Source of the DNA: Flammeovirgaceae bacterium
GTDB lineage: Bacteria; Bacteroidota; Bacteroidia; Cytophagales; Cyclobacteriaceae
Direction of reading: 5' to 3'
NCBI GenBank assembly: GCA_021300095.1
Contig: JAJTHV010000015.1
Coordinates: 1-32,472 of the forward strand
Length of the DNA: 32,472 nucleotides
Shown here: positions 4,839 through 32,472 of the stretch, in pieces
How the letters are laid out: the number at the start of each line of letters is the position of its first letter
Numbering within the stretch: position 1 is the stretch's first letter
Notes under the pieces: generated by a model
Seen by the model: the letters and a program-made list of their open reading frames with translations, nothing else
Databases searched by the model: none
Told to the model about the DNA's origin: nothing
Translations under genes and position numbers: made by a program

Positions 4839-6044
4839 CTAGTGATCGAGGAAACTCTGCACCATCGATTCATTCACGTGATCCATTAGCACCACTTTCC
4901 ACCAGGTAGGGTGATCGTGATTATCCGGAACTAAATTATAATGATGTTGTATTTCGCGCACCATGTGACGGTTGTGGATGGCCACAATATTCATGTACGG
5001 ATCGTGGATGTATTCAATCTTTTTCTTATCCAGATCAGCGCACATTTTTTTCTTCAAATCCATCACTCGCTTCACTTTGGCTTGCAATCCTTTTGAACCA
5101 AACGCTCGCAAAATCATCCACACAGAAATAGCATTAGCACCCGAGCGACTTCCCGAAAGGGTATGAATTTTATGCGCCATGAAGTGTGGCTCATTAGTCG
5201 CCAGATAATTCAAGTACCCTTTGCGAATGAGAAACACACCCGTGCCATACGGTGCTTGCAACATTTTGTGGGCGTCTAAACTGATACTGGTTACTTTGCT
5301 GTTCGAAAAATTCAAACTGTTCTTGGGATGCGTGAATGGATAGGTAAATCCTCCAAAGGCCCCATCGACATGTACTTTGTAATATACTTCTTCTTCATCC
5401 AGCACCGTGGTGAGGTCGTCTATATTATCGACTGTTCCAAACATGGTGGTGCCCATGTTGGCGACTACTATGAAGTACTCAATCTTTTCTGATTTCGCTT
5501 TTTTGATTTTCGTGCGCAAGTCTTGCAAGTTGATTTGCCGGGAAGTTTTGTGAACATCAACAACCAGTTGTTGAATCCCCAGAAGGTTGGCGATTTTCCA
5601 CACCGAGTAGTGCGTATCTTCCGAGTGCACAATGGCAATTTGATGCGACTCAGCCTTGTACTTTCGCTTGAACAGATTACGAAATATCCAGGCTGCCTGC
5701 ATGTTGCATTCGGTACCGCCTGCAGCAATGTATCCATCTTGCATACCCGGTTTACCGGCCATCAATTGTTCAGCACAAATTTGGATGGCCTCCATCTCAA
5801 GTTGCTCAGTACCTTCAAAAAAATCTCCTGAGATTCCCTGCGTGGGGCATCCACCGTGATTGGCATTTTGAAGCATGGCATACAAGAAGGGAGATTGCTG
5901 CACACCTTCTTTTTGAAAAATGCGCGGATCCATAGATGAGATCGGTAAGCCCATCACTTTGCTTTTGCCAAAGCGCACATTACGATCAAATGCCTTTTTA
6001 ATCGTGTTTCGTATTTCAGACCCGGGGAGACGTTTCCAATACAT
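4839..6044 (-). CDS. Pyridoxal-phosphate-dependent decarboxylase, group II type (canonical copy)
   Basis: A 401-residue fold-type I PLP enzyme of the group II decarboxylase / sphingosine-phosphate-lyase-like superfamily. The visible active-site set is complete: stacking His145 in EDTHYSVWK, Asp227 in HVDGAFGGF that pairs with the pyridine nitrogen, and Schiff-base Lys260 in SLDAHKMLQAPYGTG. GGTECNMQA at about residues 109-117 matches the phosphate-binding turn. Such enzymes usually decarboxylate an amino acid (Glu, Asp, His, Tyr and others) to the amine; the substrate cannot be read from sequence. It lies 3 bp downstream of a paralogue of almost identical length and is the last gene of a three-gene operon that begins with a GNAT acyltransferase. 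Both paralogues start with MYWKRL, which supports the start. Confidence 0.9.
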   Translation of the reverse strand: MYWKRLPGSEIRNTIKKAFDRNVRFGKSKVMGLPISSMDPRIFQKEGVQQSPFLYAMLQNANHGGCPTQGISGDFFEGTEQLEMEAIQICAEQLMAGKPGMQDGYIAAGGTECNMQAAWIFRNLFKRKYKAESHQIAIVHSEDTHYSVWKIANLLGIQQLVVDVHKTSRQINLQDLRTKIKKAKSEKIEYFIVVANMGTTMFGTVDNIDDLTTVLDEEEVYYKVHVDGAFGGFTYPFTHPKNSLNFSNSKVTSISLDAHKMLQAPYGTGVFLIRKGYLNYLATNEPHFMAHKIHTLSGSRSGANAISVWMILRAFGSKGLQAKVKRVMDLKKKMCADLDKKKIEYIHDPYMNIVAIHNRHMVREIQHHYNLVPDNHDHPTWWKVVLMDHVNESMVQSFLDH

Positions 6045-6047
6045 AAT

Positions 6048-7256
6048 TTAATGATCTATAAAAGCATCGATAAGGGCATTGTCTACATGATCCATTACAA
6101 TGACACGCCACCATTTTGGGTTTTCGGTGTCATCGGGCACCAGCCCATAGAGGCTTTCAATTTGCCGTGTCATGTGTTTGTTTTTGATTGCCACGATATT
6201 CATTCCGGCTTCATGAAAATAGTCGATGTGTTTTGCATCGAGTGCTTCGCAGAGTTGACGCGTGCGTATGAATATGCGCTGCATTTTGTAATTCATTCCT
6301 TTTGACCCCAATGTTTTCAGCAGCATCCAGATGGCGATTGCGTTCGCTCCGGATCTACTGCCGATGATGGTATGATCTTTTCCGGCCACGTAGCGAGCTT
6401 CTTCGGTTAAAGCAAAGTCCATATACCCTTTACGAATCATAAACAAACTCGTGCCAAAGGGAGCGCGCAGAATTTTATACGCATCGGTATTGATGGAAGT
6501 GATTTTGGGATTTTTGAAGCTGAGCTTGTGATCGGGTTGGGTAAAAGGATAAATAAATCCACCAATGCCTGCATCCACATGAATTTTGTACGGCACATTT
6601 TGTTCTTCCAACTGGGCACATACCAAATCGGGATCGTCTACTGACCCAAAGATTTCGGTGCCCATATTTAGTATCACAATAAAATAATGGATGCCGCGGT
6701 CTTTGGCGGAAACAATTTGCTGGCGCAAATGTGCTTTATCAATTTTTCGTGTGGATGTGTTTACGTTGACTACGATCGGGCGAATATCGAGCAGGTCGCA
6801 TCCTTTGATAATCGAGATGCTGCTGTCTTCGGAGAAGAGTACCCCAATCTCAGATGTGCGGCATCGATAGGTTTGTGTGAAATAGTTTCGGTAGATCCAC
6901 AATGCTTCCATGTTGCTCTCGGTTCCACCACCTGCAATGTACCCGTCTTGCTGGTTCGGTAGGCCTTGCATAATTTTTTCAGCGCAGAGTTTGATGGCTT
7001 CACATTCAATTTCATGTGTGCCGCTGAAAAACGATTCTGATTTTTTATCGATCGTGTGACACCCGATGTGGTTGGGGTTCTCAAGCATGGCGCTCAACAG
7101 CGGGTCGCCTTCAGCAACTTTATGGTAAAATACCCGCCAATCCAGAAAGGACCCCGGCACTCCCATGATCTTGTTGCGCTTGTAGGAAACGTTCTTCTTC
7201 AACGCCTGAAAAACGCGCTCACTAATTTGTTCTTTGGTAAGCCGTTTCCAGTACAT
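6048..7256 (-). CDS. Diverged group II PLP-decarboxylase paralogue with altered active site
   Basis: A 402-residue protein, collinear with the decarboxylase at 4839-6044 (same MYWKRL start, same GGGTESNMEA phosphate turn, same ending VMDHV...DH), so the two arose by tandem duplication. Lys261 (TDAYKILRAPFGTS) and Asp228 (HVDAGIGGF) are kept, so PLP binding is likely. However, the His that normally stacks on the PLP ring is Ser146 (EDSSISIIK), and the usual DAHK is DAYK. This suggests changed chemistry (for example a different substrate, or oxidative or aldehyde-forming activity) or a partner or regulatory role for the first enzyme; these are inferences. It is separated by 9 bp from the upstream acyltransferase gene and by 3 bp from the downstream paralogue, so the three are surely co-transcribed. 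Confidence 0.87.
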   Translation of the reverse strand: MYWKRLTKEQISERVFQALKKNVSYKRNKIMGVPGSFLDWRVFYHKVAEGDPLLSAMLENPNHIGCHTIDKKSESFFSGTHEIECEAIKLCAEKIMQGLPNQQDGYIAGGGTESNMEALWIYRNYFTQTYRCRTSEIGVLFSEDSSISIIKGCDLLDIRPIVVNVNTSTRKIDKAHLRQQIVSAKDRGIHYFIVILNMGTEIFGSVDDPDLVCAQLEEQNVPYKIHVDAGIGGFIYPFTQPDHKLSFKNPKITSINTDAYKILRAPFGTSLFMIRKGYMDFALTEEARYVAGKDHTIIGSRSGANAIAIWMLLKTLGSKGMNYKMQRIFIRTRQLCEALDAKHIDYFHEAGMNIVAIKNKHMTRQIESLYGLVPDDTENPKWWRVIVMDHVDNALIDAFIDH

Positions 7257-8113: not shown

Positions 8114-11100
8114 ATGAAAGATCTTCCCCCCGATGCTATTGTCTTAAAAGAGAACTCCTTTTGGTCGGTTTACCGCTGGAGGAGTGCCGAATGGAACCAA
8201 GTCGTTATTTTAAAGTTGTTAAATCCTACAAGTGTAAGAAATGGTCATCTAAAGCAGTTGACAGATGAATTCAATGTCACCCGCCAACTCGACCTGCCTT
8301 TCGTTCGCAAGGCATTAGAGAAACTGAAACTCAACAACCGCGAAGGACTTGTGTTGGAATATGTACCCGGCAAAACACTGAAGGACTGGATTAAGAATAA
8401 CGGTGGTCTGGATACAAAAAAATTTCTTGAATTATCCATTCAGTTGACAGATCAACTATTTCAGATTCATGAAAAAGGATTTTATCATCGGGATATCAAC
8501 CCCGAAAATATCATCGTAAACGATTCGCTTACTTCCTCAACGTTTATTGACTTTGATCTGGCTACCCCATTTGGTGTACTGCGCGAACAGCCCATAAAAG
8601 AATCATTAGAAGGCACACTGGCGTATCTTTCTCCTGAGCAAACAGGACGAACCAACCGAAAAATAGATTATCGCACCGACTTGTATTCACTGGGCATCAC
8701 CTTGTACGAATGCATTACCGGTCAGCTTCCGTTTTCGTTTGCCGATCCTACCGAAATGATTCACGCTCATTTGGCGATTGAACCTAAAAGCGTTTATGAA
8801 TTGAATAGCGAAGTGCCGATGATGATTTCGCTGATCATCAAAAAAATGATGGCGAAGAACGCTGAAATGCGCTATCAGTCTTTGGAAGGTGTAAAATATG
8901 ATTTGGTAAAATGTAAATCGCAGCTCGAGCAAGCAGGCACAATCAGTGAGTTTCCTTTGGCCGAGAGTGATCATTTTGGTCGTTTTAATATTCCTCATCT
9001 ATTGCTGGGTCGTGAACGCGAAACCGCATTGCTCCGCGAGATGTTGGCGCGCGTTATTCAAAGTTCTTCTTGCGAAATCTTACTTATCACTGGTGAGGCA
9101 GGATCTGGCAAATCAACACTGGCCGCACATCTGCATCCGTATTTGCTGGAACAGCATGGCTACTTTGTTTCAGGTAAATACGATATTCCGCAATTGAGCT
9201 CACCGTATAGCGCCATCATTTCCGCATTCAAGGGATTAACAAATATTCTTTTAAGCGAACCGGAGGAATCTATTAAAGAGTGGAAAGAAGTATTGAATCA
9301 GGCCGTGGGCGATTCGGGAAATGTGCTGACGGAGGTACTACCTGAGTTACAACTGATCCTGGGGCCGCAGCCTCAATTAACGCAACTGGGATCGCGCGAA
9401 GCGGGCTTCCGGTTTAATTATGTGTTCACCAACTTTATCAAAACAATAAGTGCCAAGCATCCACTGGTTTTGTTCTTAGATGATTTGCAATGGGCAGATG
9501 AAGCTTCGTTGATATTGATCAAAGCCATTCTTACTGAAAAAGATTTAGGAAAGGTCTTTTTGATAGCCACCTGTCGGGAAGAAGAAAGAATTGCCAATAC
9601 GCAATTGGTTGCCATTCTAAATGATATTGAAAAAAGTAAGCCAATCGAATATTTGTCGCTGGTGCCTTTGCCGCTGGAGGCGATTCAACAGATTGTATTG
9701 GAAACCATCAACTGCACGATCAGTCAGGCACATGCGCTGGCACAAGCCGTTCAGCGCAAAACATTAGGCAATGCTTTTTTTGTTAATCAGTTTTTAAAGT
9801 CGCTGTATGAGCGAAACTACCTCCGTTGGCAAAATGCAATTGGCTGGACGTGGGACGAAACGGAAATCGAAAATCTTACGATCACGGATAATGTGGTGGA
9901 GTTACTTTGTCAATCCATTCGAAAAATGGAGCCCACCACACAACAATCGTTAATGGTAGCTTCCTGCATTGGCCGCGACTTTTCAGTATATCAGCTGGCC
10001 AGTGTGTTAGAAAATCATGATCAGGTAATCTTGGCTTTTTTACAAGATGCCATCAAAAACGGTTTGATTACCTACGCAGCGATTGGGCGTGTCATGCATC
10101 AAAACGAATCACAAAAGTTCCGCTTTACACACGATCGTATTCAACAAGCTTCGTATTCATTATTAGACGAAGAACAAAAACAGCAGTGGCATTATAAAAT
10201 TGCCATGAATCTGGTGCAGTTTCAATCGGAAGATACTGACCAGCATCTCTTTGAAATTGTCAACCATTTTCGCTTATCCAAATCACTGATTCGGGATGAT
10301 AAGTTGAAACAACAAGTGGCGCGTTTTAATTTGGATGCCGGTATGCGAGCGAAACGCTCGGTCGCATTCCCTCAAGCGAATGGGTATTTTCAAGATGCAT
10401 GGTTTTGGCTTCAACCCTTTAAGCCTTGGACTACCGATTACCAAGTTACTTTGCAGTTGTTTAATGAGATCGCTGATACTTCTTATCTAGTGGGCAATTT
10501 CGAACGAATGGAGTATGCCATTGCCGAAATTTTAAACCACACCCCATCACTGCTCGATAAAATCAAAGCCTATGAAGTAAAGATTCATTATTACCAATCG
10601 CGGAATAAACTAGTGGAAGCCGTTACATTGGCAATCGATGTGGCTGCCATGTTGGGCGTTCGCTTCCCTGCTCACCCCAATAAAGTAAACATTCTTGCCT
10701 CACTTTTTACACTCCAATTTTCGTTGGCCCGTAAAAGCGATGATGCCCTGGTGCACTTGCCAGCCATGAAGAACGAAAAAATATTGGCGGCTATGCGCAT
10801 CTTGGTGAGTGTAAATAGTGCCGCTTATTTTGCAAACCCGAATCTTTTTCCGCTGCTGGTTTTTAAGCAAGTAGAACTTTCATTGAAATATGGCAATTGC
10901 GAGTTTTCGCCTTTCGCTTATGCCTCTTTCGGTGTGGTAAAAACAGGTGTATTAGGAGATATTGAAGGAGGATACAAATTAGGACAGGTGGCCGAGAAGC
11001 TCCTAGATCAATTTCCTTCCAAAAGCTTGCGTGTCCGCACCTTGATTGTGATCAATGGATTTCTCAATCATTGGAAGATACATCCCGGTCATTTTGTGCT

Positions 11101-13396
11101 GGCACTTCCTTCCTTCTTTGATGCGGCCAAAGAATCCGGAGATATCGAATATGCCGCTTTGTGTTTGTTTAATCAGACACTGTACAGTTTTTGTTTGGGT
11201 CAATCGCTCTTGCGCCTTGAACAGGAAGCAACACAGCGCGATGAAATCATTCAATCGTACAATCAAAACACGCCTCTATTCTTCAATAAAATATTTCTGC
11301 AAACGGTCATCAACTTACGAAGTGGTGCGGCAAATCCAACAGAACTCATTGGACGAGGATATGATGAGTCGGTGATGATTGACATCCACTTGCAGGCGAA
11401 AGACAATACCTCTCTTTTTGCGTGCTACATGCAAAAGGCATATCTCCATTATCTGTTTTATCAATATGACCATGCACTCACCTATATCAACAAAACCGAG
11501 CAGTTTATAGAAAGCGCCATCGCTTCGGTGATCTACCCGGTTTATTTCTTTTACGAAGCGTTGATTTACGCATCACAAGTGCAAGGCAAAGAAGCTTCTA
11601 GTGCAGTTCTCAAACGGATCAAAAAAAATCTTCGAAAACTGGAAAAGTGGGCAAAGCTCTCACCGGAGCATCACGGTCATCGCCATCAGCTATTGTTGGC
11701 AGAATATTACCGACTCACCAATCAAGGACATGAAGCAGCCACTTGTTATGAGGAGGCCGCCAAACGAGCCAGTGAAAATCAGTTTACTCAGGAAGCTGCT
11801 CTTGCGTTTGAATTGGCCGGAAAATATTACCTCGATCAGGAGCGCGAGTCAATTGCTGTTTATTATTTGGAGAGCGCAGTACGCGCCTATGCGCAGTGGG
11901 GTGCCATTGAGAAAGTAAAGCACCTTACCGCCCAGTTCGGCAAGCTATTGCGCTATAGACGTGTAGAAGAGTTTACCGTATTTGAAAACAACGATTCCTT
12001 ACGGCTGAACAATAGTCAGGCCTTGGATTTGAATACAGTGGTAAAAGCCAATCAGGCCATTTCGCAAGAGCTGGTATTGGGTGCCCTGCTCGAAAAGATG
12101 ATGGTAATTGTTGAACAAAGTGCCGGTGCGCAGCGTGGTGCATTGATCGATAATGATAACAATCAATTGAAAGTCTTGGTTGATCGTCATGCGATGATGC
12201 ATAGCCCTTTGGAGTCAGCCAAGGACTTACCCTTGTCGGTGATTCATTATGTAGCACGCACGAAGAAGAGTTTGGTTTTTGGCAATGCGTATAAGGATTT
12301 GCAATTTGGAAATGATGAGTACATCATGCGCGAGCGCCCCAAATCCATTCTCTGTTATCCGGTTATTCGCAAAGGCAAATTGAGTTGCATCTTTTATCTG
12401 GAGAACAATCTGGCTTACGATACATTTACGGCACAACGATTGGAGTTGCTGGATATCCTTGCACCGCAAATGGCGATCTCTATTGAGAATGCATTGCTTT
12501 ATGAAAACCTGGAGGCAAAAGTGAAGATGCGCACGGAAGAAATTCAGGTGAAGAATGAAAAGTTGGAACAACAGAAAGCTGAAATCGGCTACCAGCGCGA
12601 CCGACTGGAAGACGCCCAAAAAGAAATCATTTTCAAAAACGAAGAACTGCGAAAAGTCAACTCGAATCTGGAATTGATTGTGGAAGACCGCACCCGCGAG
12701 TTGATGGTTACGCTAGAGAAACTCAAAGAAAGCAATAAAGAACTCGATACATTCATCTACAGGGCTTCGCATGATTTGAAAGGCCCGATCCTTCGCATAC
12801 AGGGCTTGACGATGATCACACAGCGCGAGCCTGATCCAGCCTTGCAAAAATTGAATATCAACCGGATTGAATTCACCGCTATTGAAATGGGCCGTGTGCT
12901 TTCCAAGTTGTTAAATATTCATCAGGTATTTAAGGATGAAATAGAAAAAACCAAAGTCAACTTTGAGCAACTCATCAGCGATGTGGCCAAAACGTTGCAA
13001 CCGTTAATTTGGGAGAACACAGACTTTTTGGTAGCCGATATTCCAAATGAAATTGTGTTCTATTCAGATATTCAATTTCTGAAAACGATTTTAGAAAATC
13101 TGATTGAAAATTCAATTGTATTTCGGAAAGAAGGGGTTGATCTGAAAATCCATGTCACCATTGGCGTGCAGCAAGACAAACTGATTTTATCCGTTCGTGA
13201 TAATGGTTCCGGCATCAATCCGGAAATCAAAAATCAATTGTTCAATATGTTTTACCGCGGCTCGGAAAAATCCATTGGCAATGGATTGGGATTGTACCTC
13301 GTCAAGAAAGCCACCGAAAAATTAGGTGGCGAAGTACACATTCAAAGCACTCAATTTGAGTTTACCGAAGTTACGGTAGCAATTCCTGTGACTTAG
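8114..13396 (+). CDS. Giant hybrid: Ser/Thr kinase, AAA ATPase, GAF and sensor histidine kinase
   Basis: A 1760-residue cytoplasmic signalling protein. Residues 1-265 are a Hanks-type kinase with Lys34 (VVILKLL), Asp127 in HRDINPEN and Asp146 in DFDLA; the glycine-rich loop is poor. Residues 300-600 form an AAA/ATPase module with Walker A GEAGSGKST (Lys333) and Walker B LVLFLDDLQWAD (Asp456, Asp457). About 650-1280 is helical, TPR-like. About 1290-1445 is a GAF domain, then a coiled coil to about 1530. The histidine kinase follows: His1553 in RASHDLKGP, N-box NLIENSI, DNGSGI and GNGLGLYLVKK. This layout is known as the trifunctional kinase/ATPase/histidine-kinase family. There is no receiver domain in the protein and no response regulator nearby. 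No transmembrane segment is seen, so the signal is probably intracellular. Its stop overlaps that of scpA by 4 bp. Confidence 0.94.
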   Translation: MKDLPPDAIVLKENSFWSVYRWRSAEWNQVVILKLLNPTSVRNGHLKQLTDEFNVTRQLDLPFVRKALEKLKLNNREGLVLEYVPGKTLKDWIKNNGGLDTKKFLELSIQLTDQLFQIHEKGFYHRDINPENIIVNDSLTSSTFIDFDLATPFGVLREQPIKESLEGTLAYLSPEQTGRTNRKIDYRTDLYSLGITLYECITGQLPFSFADPTEMIHAHLAIEPKSVYELNSEVPMMISLIIKKMMAKNAEMRYQSLEGVKYDLVKCKSQLEQAGTISEFPLAESDHFGRFNIPHLLLGRERETALLREMLARVIQSSSCEILLITGEAGSGKSTLAAHLHPYLLEQHGYFVSGKYDIPQLSSPYSAIISAFKGLTNILLSEPEESIKEWKEVLNQAVGDSGNVLTEVLPELQLILGPQPQLTQLGSREAGFRFNYVFTNFIKTISAKHPLVLFLDDLQWADEASLILIKAILTEKDLGKVFLIATCREEERIANTQLVAILNDIEKSKPIEYLSLVPLPLEAIQQIVLETINCTISQAHALAQAVQRKTLGNAFFVNQFLKSLYERNYLRWQNAIGWTWDETEIENLTITDNVVELLCQSIRKMEPTTQQSLMVASCIGRDFSVYQLASVLENHDQVILAFLQDAIKNGLITYAAIGRVMHQNESQKFRFTHDRIQQASYSLLDEEQKQQWHYKIAMNLVQFQSEDTDQHLFEIVNHFRLSKSLIRDDKLKQQVARFNLDAGMRAKRSVAFPQANGYFQDAWFWLQPFKPWTTDYQVTLQLFNEIADTSYLVGNFERMEYAIAEILNHTPSLLDKIKAYEVKIHYYQSRNKLVEAVTLAIDVAAMLGVRFPAHPNKVNILASLFTLQFSLARKSDDALVHLPAMKNEKILAAMRILVSVNSAAYFANPNLFPLLVFKQVELSLKYGNCEFSPFAYASFGVVKTGVLGDIEGGYKLGQVAEKLLDQFPSKSLRVRTLIVINGFLNHWKIHPGHFVLALPSFFDAAKESGDIEYAALCLFNQTLYSFCLGQSLLRLEQEATQRDEIIQSYNQNTPLFFNKIFLQTVINLRSGAANPTELIGRGYDESVMIDIHLQAKDNTSLFACYMQKAYLHYLFYQYDHALTYINKTEQFIESAIASVIYPVYFFYEALIYASQVQGKEASSAVLKRIKKNLRKLEKWAKLSPEHHGHRHQLLLAEYYRLTNQGHEAATCYEEAAKRASENQFTQEAALAFELAGKYYLDQERESIAVYYLESAVRAYAQWGAIEKVKHLTAQFGKLLRYRRVEEFTVFENNDSLRLNNSQALDLNTVVKANQAISQELVLGALLEKMMVIVEQSAGAQRGALIDNDNNQLKVLVDRHAMMHSPLESAKDLPLSVIHYVARTKKSLVFGNAYKDLQFGNDEYIMRERPKSILCYPVIRKGKLSCIFYLENNLAYDTFTAQRLELLDILAPQMAISIENALLYENLEAKVKMRTEEIQVKNEKLEQQKAEIGYQRDRLEDAQKEIIFKNEELRKVNSNLELIVEDRTRELMVTLEKLKESNKELDTFIYRASHDLKGPILRIQGLTMITQREPDPALQKLNINRIEFTAIEMGRVLSKLLNIHQVFKDEIEKTKVNFEQLISDVAKTLQPLIWENTDFLVADIPNEIVFYSDIQFLKTILENLIENSIVFRKEGVDLKIHVTIGVQQDKLILSVRDNGSGINPEIKNQLFNMFYRGSEKSIGNGLGLYLVKKATEKLGGEVHIQSTQFEFTEVTVAIPVT

Positions 13397-30745: not shown

Positions 30746-31975
30746 ATGAGTGATCCCTACGCAGCGCTGCAAGTAAGAGACTTTCGATTTTTTGTTTTTG
30801 CCCGAATGTTTATCACCCTCGCCATCATGATTCAGGCGGTGGTGGTCGGGTGGCAGGTATACGAGATTACCAAAGATGCACTCTCACTCGGATTGATTGG
30901 TTTGGCAGAAGCTATTCCGGCTATCACGGTTTCGTTGTATGCCGGACATTTGGCCGATGTGGTAGAGCGCAAGAAAATAATTGTGGTGTGTGTAAGCACA
31001 TTGGTGGTGTGCTCGGTAGCGCTGCTCTACTTCACCACAAACACCGGAGCGTTTATATTGGCCAATGGAGCCTTCCCGATTTACACAGTGATTTTTGTAA
31101 GTGGTATTGCCCGTGGTTTTTTATCGCCCGCCAGCTTTTCGTTTATGCCGCAATTGATCAGCCGCGACTTATATCAAAATGCGATTGTGTGGAACAGCAC
31201 CTTGTGGGAAGGTGCCTCGGTGGGCGGACCGATCATTGGTGGTTTGGTATACGGATTTTTTGATATCACTGCCGCCTATTCGGTAGACGTAGCCTTGATG
31301 TTGCTCGGACTTACCTGCATTGTGCTAATACCCAATCGCGAATTGCCACCGGTAAGTGAAGAGCAAAGCATCTTTGCCAAGATCAAAGCGGGGATACAGT
31401 TCGTGTTCAAAAATCAGATTATCCTCAGCGCCATTTCACTGGATCTATTTGCTGTATTGTTTGGAGGAGCCGTGGCGCTGTTGCCCATTTTTGCCGATGA
31501 TATTTTGCACGTGGGCAAAGAAGGGTTGGGCTTTCTTCGATCGGCACAAGGCATTGGCGCGGTGATCATGGCCGTTTACATTACCCGCAATCCTATCAGA
31601 AAGAACATAGGCAAGATATTGTTGTGGTGTGTGGCCGGCTTTGGTGTGTGCATGATCGGCTTTGGATTGTCCACTTTCTTTTGGCTGTCGATGGGCTTGT
31701 TGATTTTAAGCGGCATGTTTGATTGCGTGAGCGTGATCGTTCGCAGCACCCTCATCCACACCCTCACCCCCGAAAACATGAAAGGCCGCGTGTCGGCCGT
31801 GAATAGCATCTTCATAGGTTCCTCCAACGAGATTGGTTCTTTCGAATCCGGAGTGGCCGCGCGACTGCTGGGCGTGGTGCCGTCCGTCATCTTTGGTGGA
31901 CTGATGACACTGGGCGTAGTGGGCATTACCGCCTGGAAAGCTGATAAGCTAAGGGCGCTGGATAAGGTGGGGTGA
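30746..31975 (+). CDS. MFS transporter, EntS-like exporter
   Basis: A 409-residue major facilitator with about 12 TM segments. The loop-2 motif is clear as YAGHLADVVERKK, and the N-terminus (YAALQVRDFRFFVFARMF) and the mid region (SFMPQLISRDLYQNAIVWNS) match the MFS_3/EntS branch that exports siderophores and drugs. ATG 30746 follows the NadR-like gene closely. The cargo is not indicated. It is the last ordinary gene before the 21-bp repeat array. Confidence 0.9.
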   Translation: MSDPYAALQVRDFRFFVFARMFITLAIMIQAVVVGWQVYEITKDALSLGLIGLAEAIPAITVSLYAGHLADVVERKKIIVVCVSTLVVCSVALLYFTTNTGAFILANGAFPIYTVIFVSGIARGFLSPASFSFMPQLISRDLYQNAIVWNSTLWEGASVGGPIIGGLVYGFFDITAAYSVDVALMLLGLTCIVLIPNRELPPVSEEQSIFAKIKAGIQFVFKNQIILSAISLDLFAVLFGGAVALLPIFADDILHVGKEGLGFLRSAQGIGAVIMAVYITRNPIRKNIGKILLWCVAGFGVCMIGFGLSTFFWLSMGLLILSGMFDCVSVIVRSTLIHTLTPENMKGRVSAVNSIFIGSSNEIGSFESGVAARLLGVVPSVIFGGLMTLGVVGITAWKADKLRALDKVG

Positions 31976-32006: not shown

Positions 32007-32021
32007 GGGTGCCCTTCACCC
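32007..32021. other. Short hairpin before the repeat array
   Basis: GGGTG (32007-32011) and CACCC (32017-32021) form a 5-bp stem around CCCTT, between the MFS stop and the array. No T-run follows, so it is a poor terminator; it may be part of the array boundary. Confidence 0.3.
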
Positions 32022-32027
32022 AATGCC

Positions 32028-32342
32028 TGGAAGACAGCTCCCGAAAATGGGTAGACATCTCCCGATGACAGGGAGATACCCACGGAGCTTCGGTGGGCTT
32101 CTACCAGTGCCGGGGAGAACCTCCCGGAGGTTTTGTATACATCTACCGATGGCGGGGAGACATCTCCCGATGATGGGGAGATACCCACGGAGCTTCGGTG
32201 GGCTTGAACCAATGATAGGGAGACACCTCCCGATCACGGGGAGACGTCTACCATTGCCCCGTAGATATGTCCCAGTGATTTTGCGACACCTCCCGATGAT
32301 TCTGTCAAGCGCACTGATGGCTTGGAGATGCCTGTCTTGTCC
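32028..32342. repeat. 21-bp tandem array with internal dyads (15 units)
   Basis: Fifteen units of exactly 21 bp fill 315 bp without a frame slip; the last two are decayed. The commonest unit is GGGAGACATCTCCCGATGATG, with GGGAGA/TCTCCC arms around a 2-nt centre. Where arms change they often still pair, for example GGGAG-AAC-CTCCC at 32113-32125. A 30-bp segment (32071-32100) recurs exactly at 32176-32205, five units on. Since 21 is a multiple of 3, open frames occur in both strands, each giving heptads like M-x-G-R-x-L-P; no ribosome site supports translation. Function unknown; see findings. Confidence 0.9.
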
Positions 32343-32472
32343 TGAAATAGGTTGACACTAAAGTCAACCAAAATGAATCACATACAATTAAAAGAAAGTA
32401 TTATTGCAGAGTATTTATCCACTGGGTTAAGTTTTCGCAAATTGGGCTCCAAATACGGAGTGAATTTTCGGA
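32338..32472 (+). mobile_element. Left end of an insertion sequence (truncated by window edge)
   Basis: Just past the array the sequence changes character: TGAAATAGGTTGACAC is followed by GGTTGAC (32350-32356) and its exact reverse complement GTCAACC (32363-32369), a 7-bp stem, then a transposase-like start codon. This is the layout of an IS left end. The exact border and any target duplication cannot be set without the right end; the border may overlap the last decayed array unit. Confidence 0.6.
32373..32472 (+). CDS. Transposase N-terminus (partial), helix-turn-helix type
   Basis: The 33 visible codons read MNHIQLKESIIAEYLSTGLS, then FRKLGSKYGVNFR, which is the helix-turn-helix beginning of IS3-type OrfA or related transposases of Bacteroidota. 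The frame runs off the window edge. The ATG is a few nt past an inverted repeat at 32350-32369. Family within the IS groups cannot be decided from this length. Confidence 0.65.
   Translation, partial: MNHIQLKESIIAEYLSTGLSFRKLGSKYGVNFR

Follow-up and report, generated by a model that had tools for sequence, protein, structure and literature searches.

A 21-bp tandem array at a transporter locus in a Flammeovirgaceae bacterium resembles palindromic arrays upstream of FN3-like genes

Results

A 21-bp array between a transporter gene and an IS element

The window, by which we mean the whole 32,472-bp stretch of DNA that was analysed, is an entire contig (C205) of the genome. Near its right end, an MFS transporter gene (30746-31975, + strand) is followed by a tandem array of about 15.5 units of 21 bp (32007-32332), which in terms of the array family described below has its gene sense on the - strand, and by the left end of an IS element (32333-32472, + strand), inside which the contig stops. 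The 3' end of the MFS gene is located where a gene of the FN3 family would be expected, and the array is an orphan in that it has no adjoining gene of this kind. Elsewhere, the window contains two adjoining genes with pyridoxal-dependent decarboxylase domains (4839-7256, - strand) and a gene for a 1,760-aa protein with protein kinase, AAA_16 ATPase, GAF and histidine-kinase-type ATPase domains (8114-13396, + strand).

The identity of array positions at a lag of 21 bp was 0.47, as compared to 0.27 and 0.29 at lags of 20 and 22 bp, and 2,000 single-base shuffles of the array gave a mean of 0.25 and a maximum of 0.34 at lag 21. The periodicity is thus beyond chance, as judged both from the shuffle test and from relatives with the same anatomy. 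Among the computed lags, the strongest was 105 bp, corresponding to five units (0.61), and TRF identified a higher-order repeat of this length at 32049-32252 (no strand assigned; 1.9 copies, 80% matches), which is a local amplification. An earlier note on this DNA had placed fifteen 21-bp units at 32028-32342; the period stands, but the array starts one unit further left (32007-32027) and stops at 32332, half of the last unit noted being part of the IS. The units abut without spacers. The dyads that had been described for the units hold for most but not for each of them, since at least 4 of the 8 pairs on the family axis were kept in 8 of the 14 full units and only 1 or 2 pairs in 3 of the 14.

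Both strands are open through the array, as had also been noted. On the + strand, a frame of 110 codons (32023-32355) extends from the array into the IS, and the frame on the - strand is open over more than 100 codons. We rejected the former as a gene, since it runs antiparallel to the family sense strand, enters the IS and has no Pfam family, the only other result for this frame being one insignificant NCBIfam row. The window had no match in Rfam at the gathering score, the array had none among plasmids, and no exact match of its unit was obtained in viral contigs. With 3 mismatches allowed, the unit pattern was present in 1 of 118 genomes of the taxonomic family, namely the window's own. A match within the same genome, on contig C335, was discarded as a candidate second array because it consists of other sequence without any array.

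An array apparently divided between two contigs

From position 32333 onwards, the window is 100% identical to stretches on three further contigs of its genome, and the IS end was therefore placed at this position; it follows that the previously noted unit at 32322-32342 straddles the IS edge. The terminal TG, an orfA-like start and a 3-bp repeat at the junction suggest that the element is IS3-like; 33 aa of its ORF had no hit in Pfam. An array in the related genome G128 matches, with 72% identity, a 137-bp piece on contig C155 of the window genome. This piece also ends at an IS end, which agrees with the IS end in the window at 21 of 30 positions in inverted orientation, and GGC is present at the junction on both flanks (window, C155 near 7735, L226). 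C155 could be aligned without gaps to the region past the G128 MFS-locus array in segments of 116 bp (91%), 235 bp (81%) and 137 bp (72%), the last two of which are mutually offset by 189 bp, or exactly nine units. The half-array in the window gave no alignment to the G128 array at E 1e-5. We infer from these sequence comparisons that insertion of the IS, with a 3-bp target duplication, divided a single MFS-locus array; the IS seems to have one end on C205 and the other on C155.

Arrays at the same locus in relatives

In two related genomes, G128 and G175, with MFS genes that are 98% and 99% identical to the one in the window, respectively, a longer 21-bp array lies behind the MFS gene. The alignment of these two arrays spans 708 bp, is ungapped and contains 123 differences. 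Ungapped comparisons of MFS-locus arrays with paralogous arrays in G128 yielded 106 differences in 572 bp (C16) and 120 differences in 444 bp (C52), and the differences in the three comparisons were evenly distributed over codon positions (42/35/46, 37/35/34 and 41/44/35). A gapped alignment of the upstream regions of C16 and C52 gave a net difference of 42 bp, that is, two units. No array was present at the MFS locus of WB-IL-14 (MFS 98%). The sequence closest to the window array was a gene-linked array in G178, with 86% identity over 131 bp. A chance local expansion, which the earlier note had allowed for, is refuted, since two related genomes carry 21-bp arrays at the same MFS locus and arrays are also present at the FN3-family loci.

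A family of FN3-like proteins

Two of the arrays in G128 are located inside ORFs that end 63 bp before genes for 225-aa proteins, and the G178 array is situated just 5' of a gene for a protein of this type. The family comprises proteins of about 225 aa with a C-terminal FN3-like domain. An AlphaFold2 model based on nine aligned members predicts an N-terminal part with a long helix and a C-terminal domain of seven strands (pLDDT 78.7, pTM 0.51), and a Foldseek search with the seven-strand domain retrieved mostly FN3 domains (best E 6.9e-4). Members were identified in 6 of 60 genomes of the genus, in 25 of 395 genomes of the class (E <= 1e-8), representing 12 of 196 genera, and, as distant members in another class of the phylum, in 5 of 395 genomes, two of which had already been counted. 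The class search returned 68 rows, some of which were two pieces of one gene, and 30 loci were taken from it plus 20 more; one class-search locus, G201:C77 (L223), equals L210 over 1,000 bp.

None of the family members scanned could be assigned significantly to a family in Pfam, NCBIfam, PHROGs or PADLOC, and one 225-aa member had no match among plasmids and phages. Given these results from plasmids and phages for the one member and from PHROGs and PADLOC, a mobile or phage origin was rejected. Inspection by eye of the neighbouring genes at seven family loci revealed no constant partner. On three contigs (G403:C67, G403:C68 and G295:C55) the family genes start no more than about 70 bp from the contig start, as if assemblies break in arrays.

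Association of arrays with the gene family

A lag-21 identity of at least 0.50 within 600 bp upstream of the FN3-family gene was observed at 49 of 53 loci. This count leaves out two partial protein matches, L180 and L184 (0.37 and 0.43), and becomes 49 of 55 if these are included. All 10 loci of the genus reached at least 0.51 upstream of the gene, as compared to at least 0.50 for 22 of the 26 testable class loci, and 21 was the top period at all of 19 further loci (L167, L170, L188 and L193 are too near a contig end and are not in the counts). Among members in the distant class, five of ten reached 0.50 and five were without arrays. The median distance from a detected array to the gene was 58.5 bp (quartiles 24.5 and 150.75). 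The helical-phase tandem array next to an FN3 gene is thus seen at the family loci, while the gene is absent from the window.

As controls, we used stretches upstream of MFS homologues, none of which reached a lag-21 identity of 0.50 (0/79), and ordinary windows of 600 bp, 24 of 1,277 of which did so, among them the two MFS-locus arrays. While 21 was the top period at 47 of the 53 family loci, it was also the commonest top lag in the control windows (184/1,277), with other multiples of three behaving likewise, because coding DNA favours multiples of three; it is therefore the strength rather than the rank of the period that separates the family arrays. Of the five lag-21 segments detected over 400 kb of G128, four corresponded to the MFS-locus array and one gene-linked array. 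A 400-kb portion of G147 without a known family gene contained four weak lag-21 segments (0.51-0.53), with a strength equal to that of segments at lags 18 and 27. Two further repeats were noted: bases 1-600 of L111 from Pseudochryseolinea flava form another stretch with a lag-21 identity of 0.57, and a separate repeat at 603-866 of L270 (G128:C16) has lags of 16 and 24 with identities of 0.67 and 0.72.

Free unit sequence, fixed register and dyad axis

The unit sequences look unrelated between most loci, although some related pairs exist. At L195 and L196, paralogues within genome G260, the proteins are 92% identical and the 113-bp stretch adjoining the matched gene start is 96% identical, whereas the array similarity (0.318) is that of the mean for all pairs (0.322). 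Three of the six closest pairs had related arrays (L205/L208, 0.478; L182/L204, 0.462; L191/L192, 0.411), and across 813 pairs the similarity of the arrays showed a weak correlation with the identity of the proteins (Spearman 0.095, p 0.007). The phase was imperfect in places, since small gaps that were not multiples of 21 occurred when L205/L208, L182/L204 and L196/L212 were aligned over short stretches.

To describe what the arrays share, we built a register and axis model from 46 of the 53 loci (568 units), six having been dropped by hand as weak or mixed with other repeats (L160, L179, L185, L186, L187 and L189) and L203 as a near copy of L182. A search that was blind to pairing found a common cyclic register with 2.71 bits, as compared to 2.05 (sd 0.06) for a null of permuted columns. 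In this register there is a weak linker consensus near TCAT, which favours the sense orientation in 39 of 46 arrays, the orientation in which the model was built. One axis displayed Watson-Crick covariation between arrays (0.373 versus 0.285, z 11.2), all other axes being below 2.8 in size. After removal of 11 more arrays as redundant, the axis retained a z of 8.4 in the 35 remaining arrays, with 1.8 for the next. In ten split halves, the learned axis ranked first in the held-out half in 8, ranked second in one and failed in one.

The window array, which is outside the model, had its best register on the - strand (6.04), followed there by -0.44, with a best value of 3.57 on the + strand. Its dyad axis, 15, was the best of the 21 scanned (0.46) and is the same as the family axis. 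The two-turn phasing with a dyad that had been read from the window alone thus recurs at the scale of the family, in period, axis and linker, over unrelated sequences. What defines the array family is its period, axis and linker together with its gene partner, and in the light of these comparisons the window array looks like a stray, orphan member of it.

The dyad was less evident within arrays. Compensatory change within arrays had a z of 2.6, with 3.0 for another axis, and compensation is therefore not demonstrated at this level; symmetry may accordingly matter more for the origin of an array than for its individual units later on. The stem test was significant on its own in 9 of 27 arrays, and a strict palindrome score of consensus units was insignificant in most arrays with a combined p of 4e-4 (the palindrome, stem and folding tests each cover 27 of 34 arrays).

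Coding sequence, RNA or DNA

The period is also that of seven codons, and the earlier note had raised a heptad-peptide gene. As a leader ORF, the array would encode a heptad-repeat peptide of free sequence whose translation precedes that of the FN3 gene. Stops are depleted on the sense strand, which keeps such an ORF among the candidates: a fully open sense frame was present in 25 of 46 arrays as compared to an open antisense frame in 10 of 46, and sense frame 2 contained 117 stops versus 208 (sd 30) after column permutation. Codons with a single change were synonymous in 193 cases versus 164 expected. ORFs through the arrays end 18-65 bp before the gene at five loci (L227, L229, L230, L231 and L232), the array ORFs of L153, L155 and L159 have the N-terminus MHKV in common, and those of L153, L154, L155 and L159 end in PRPP and that of L156 in RPP, even though the units differ. 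However, mismatches between neighbouring units were distributed without codon-position bias (980/969/1030, p 0.34; 30 of 34 arrays), like the differences between paralogous arrays above, and heptad-repeat coding as a conserved function is not supported and was rejected. Moreover, the open frame varies relative to the common register (frames 0, 1 and 2 open in 8, 9 and 16 arrays), 21 of 46 arrays have stops in all sense frames, and a peptide gives no reason to expect a dyad axis. Altogether, the heptad-peptide reading is weakened, and we consider a leader ORF unlikely.

Equally improbable, in our view, is an RNA leader, in which a string of short hairpins in the 5' UTR would set the stability or translation of the FN3 mRNA. 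Pairing with free sequence is typical of RNA, the folding energy was lower than after column permutation (mean z -1.99, 27 arrays), the arrays end close to the gene and the linker has a preferred orientation. In addition, three homologous loci have a conserved leader with a sigma54-like site upstream of their arrays. Against this, G-T pairs were not in excess over A-C pairs (0.90 and 0.88 of expectation), the folding z was similar on the other strand (-1.84), compensation within arrays is wanting, RNA hairpins have no need of a strict 21-nt step and the window has no Rfam match at the gathering score. Because of the lack of a G-T excess and the similar folding values on both strands, the dyad points, weakly, to DNA rather than RNA.

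Promoter-like signals were searched for upstream of the genes with the sigma54 motif. This gave 8 hits in 34 upstream regions versus 2.2 in shuffles. A perfect site, TTGGCACGCCCCTTGCA, is located between array and gene in L190 (-92). In the three homologous loci with the conserved leader, L153, L155 and L159, a sigma54-like TTGGCATGAGAGTTGGT lies ahead of the arrays (-823, -489 and -655 in gene sense). Most loci are without any site, and sigma54 control of the arrays was rejected. The sequence TANNTTTG, the -7 box of Bacteroidota, occurred 7 times in 9,811 bp upstream of arrays and 0 times in the 5,148 bp that separate arrays from genes.

Discussion

Our tentative preference, held with less than even confidence, is that the array is a cis-acting DNA scaffold constrained in phase and symmetry, by which a symmetric protein controls the FN3 gene. 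With a spacing of two helical turns, the units would expose sites of two-fold symmetry along the same side of the double helix, and a symmetric (dimeric) protein might read the spacing, the symmetry and the TCAT-like linker rather than any fixed sequence. Such a protein would line up along the array and control the downstream FN3 gene. The gene association, the common register and axis, the preserved phase at the MFS locus and the free unit sequence speak for this scaffold; the depletion of sense stops, the weak signals within single arrays (compensation and stems), the split half in which the axis failed, the related arrays of some close pairs, the out-of-step gaps and the distant members without arrays speak against it. 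The array in the window, located behind the MFS gene and split by the IS, would have lost its FN3 gene or never had one. The earlier idea of a protein-binding array is retained here in the form of a putative scaffold. The FN3 product itself is probably not the protein that reads the array, since near-identical products can have unrelated arrays; a sequence-specific binding of its own array is made improbable by L195/L196, with the three related close pairs as exceptions.

It may also be that a process exists specifically for writing palindromes of arbitrary letters, repeated every 21 bp, into the leader of one gene family, with its machinery fixing step, symmetry and linker and with whole arrays being exchanged between conserved flanks. 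The chances of this are slim, but if true it would amount to a sequence-free cis element coded by geometry. We give still less credence to a self-propagating minisatellite without a function for the gene, in which some replication or recombination process would copy an initial hairpin repeatedly at a step of 21 bp. A dyad that is strong between arrays and weak within them, as if needed only at birth, would be expected of such an element, as would unrelated units between conserved flanks, the 105-bp block repeat in the window, and the length differences of nine units between the window genome and G128 and of net two units between L153 and L159. However, the arrays are frequent upstream of one gene family and rare elsewhere, and the orphan arrays of G128 and G175 have stayed free of gaps over 708 bp.

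Regulatory DNA is usually recognised by its letters, whereas here the period, the axis and the gene partner recur while the letters change, across several families of the class and, within one genome, even between two paralogues that are nearly identical. A functional array, as in the scaffold that we favour, would be a cis element whose code is geometric, and would offer a way into a protein family of Bacteroidota that is so far uncharacterised. Should the array instead be a product of amplification, the fixed step of 21 bp needs explaining.

The earlier note knew of no described element with such a unit, and narrow queries of an open-access library brought up only BrickBuilt of P. gingivalis, which is compared below, preprints and most subscription journals being outside this search; within these limits, the array family is novel. 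In iteron and centromere arrays, which precede replication or partition genes, the unit is kept because the product of the adjacent gene binds it. The arrays here are similar to these in that tandem sites in helical phase immediately precede a gene. In iteron and centromere arrays the unit tracks the protein, whereas here paralogues with 92% identity have unrelated units. We rejected membership in this class, both because the unit does not track the protein (the similarity for L195/L196 and the rank correlation given above, although three of the six closest pairs have related arrays) and because the partner is an FN3-like gene without a significant Pfam or NCBIfam family. REP and BIME elements are short palindromes outside genes, with many copies of conserved sequence, and, unlike the arrays here, they are not strung head to tail with a 21-bp period in front of a single gene family. 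CRISPR arrays also have partly palindromic units that vary between arrays, but have unique spacers, whereas the units in the window abut, and this identity was likewise rejected.

Perhaps the nearest comparison is to BrickBuilt, a 23-nt minisatellite MITE of Porphyromonas gingivalis with 19 intergenic copies in ATCC 33277 (PMC4596501). It is similar to the arrays studied here in belonging to the Bacteroidota and in having tandem units of about 20 nt without spacers between conserved flanks, with 1 to 22.8 units per BrickBuilt element. However, we rejected membership in a BrickBuilt-type MITE, since the period is 21 in the window and at most family loci rather than 23. BrickBuilt has one common unit with 0-6% indels within elements, whereas the unit of the 21-bp arrays differs for each locus. 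BrickBuilt also has a leader and a tail with inverted-repeat ends and many neighbouring genes, whereas the arrays described here have one gene family as their partner.
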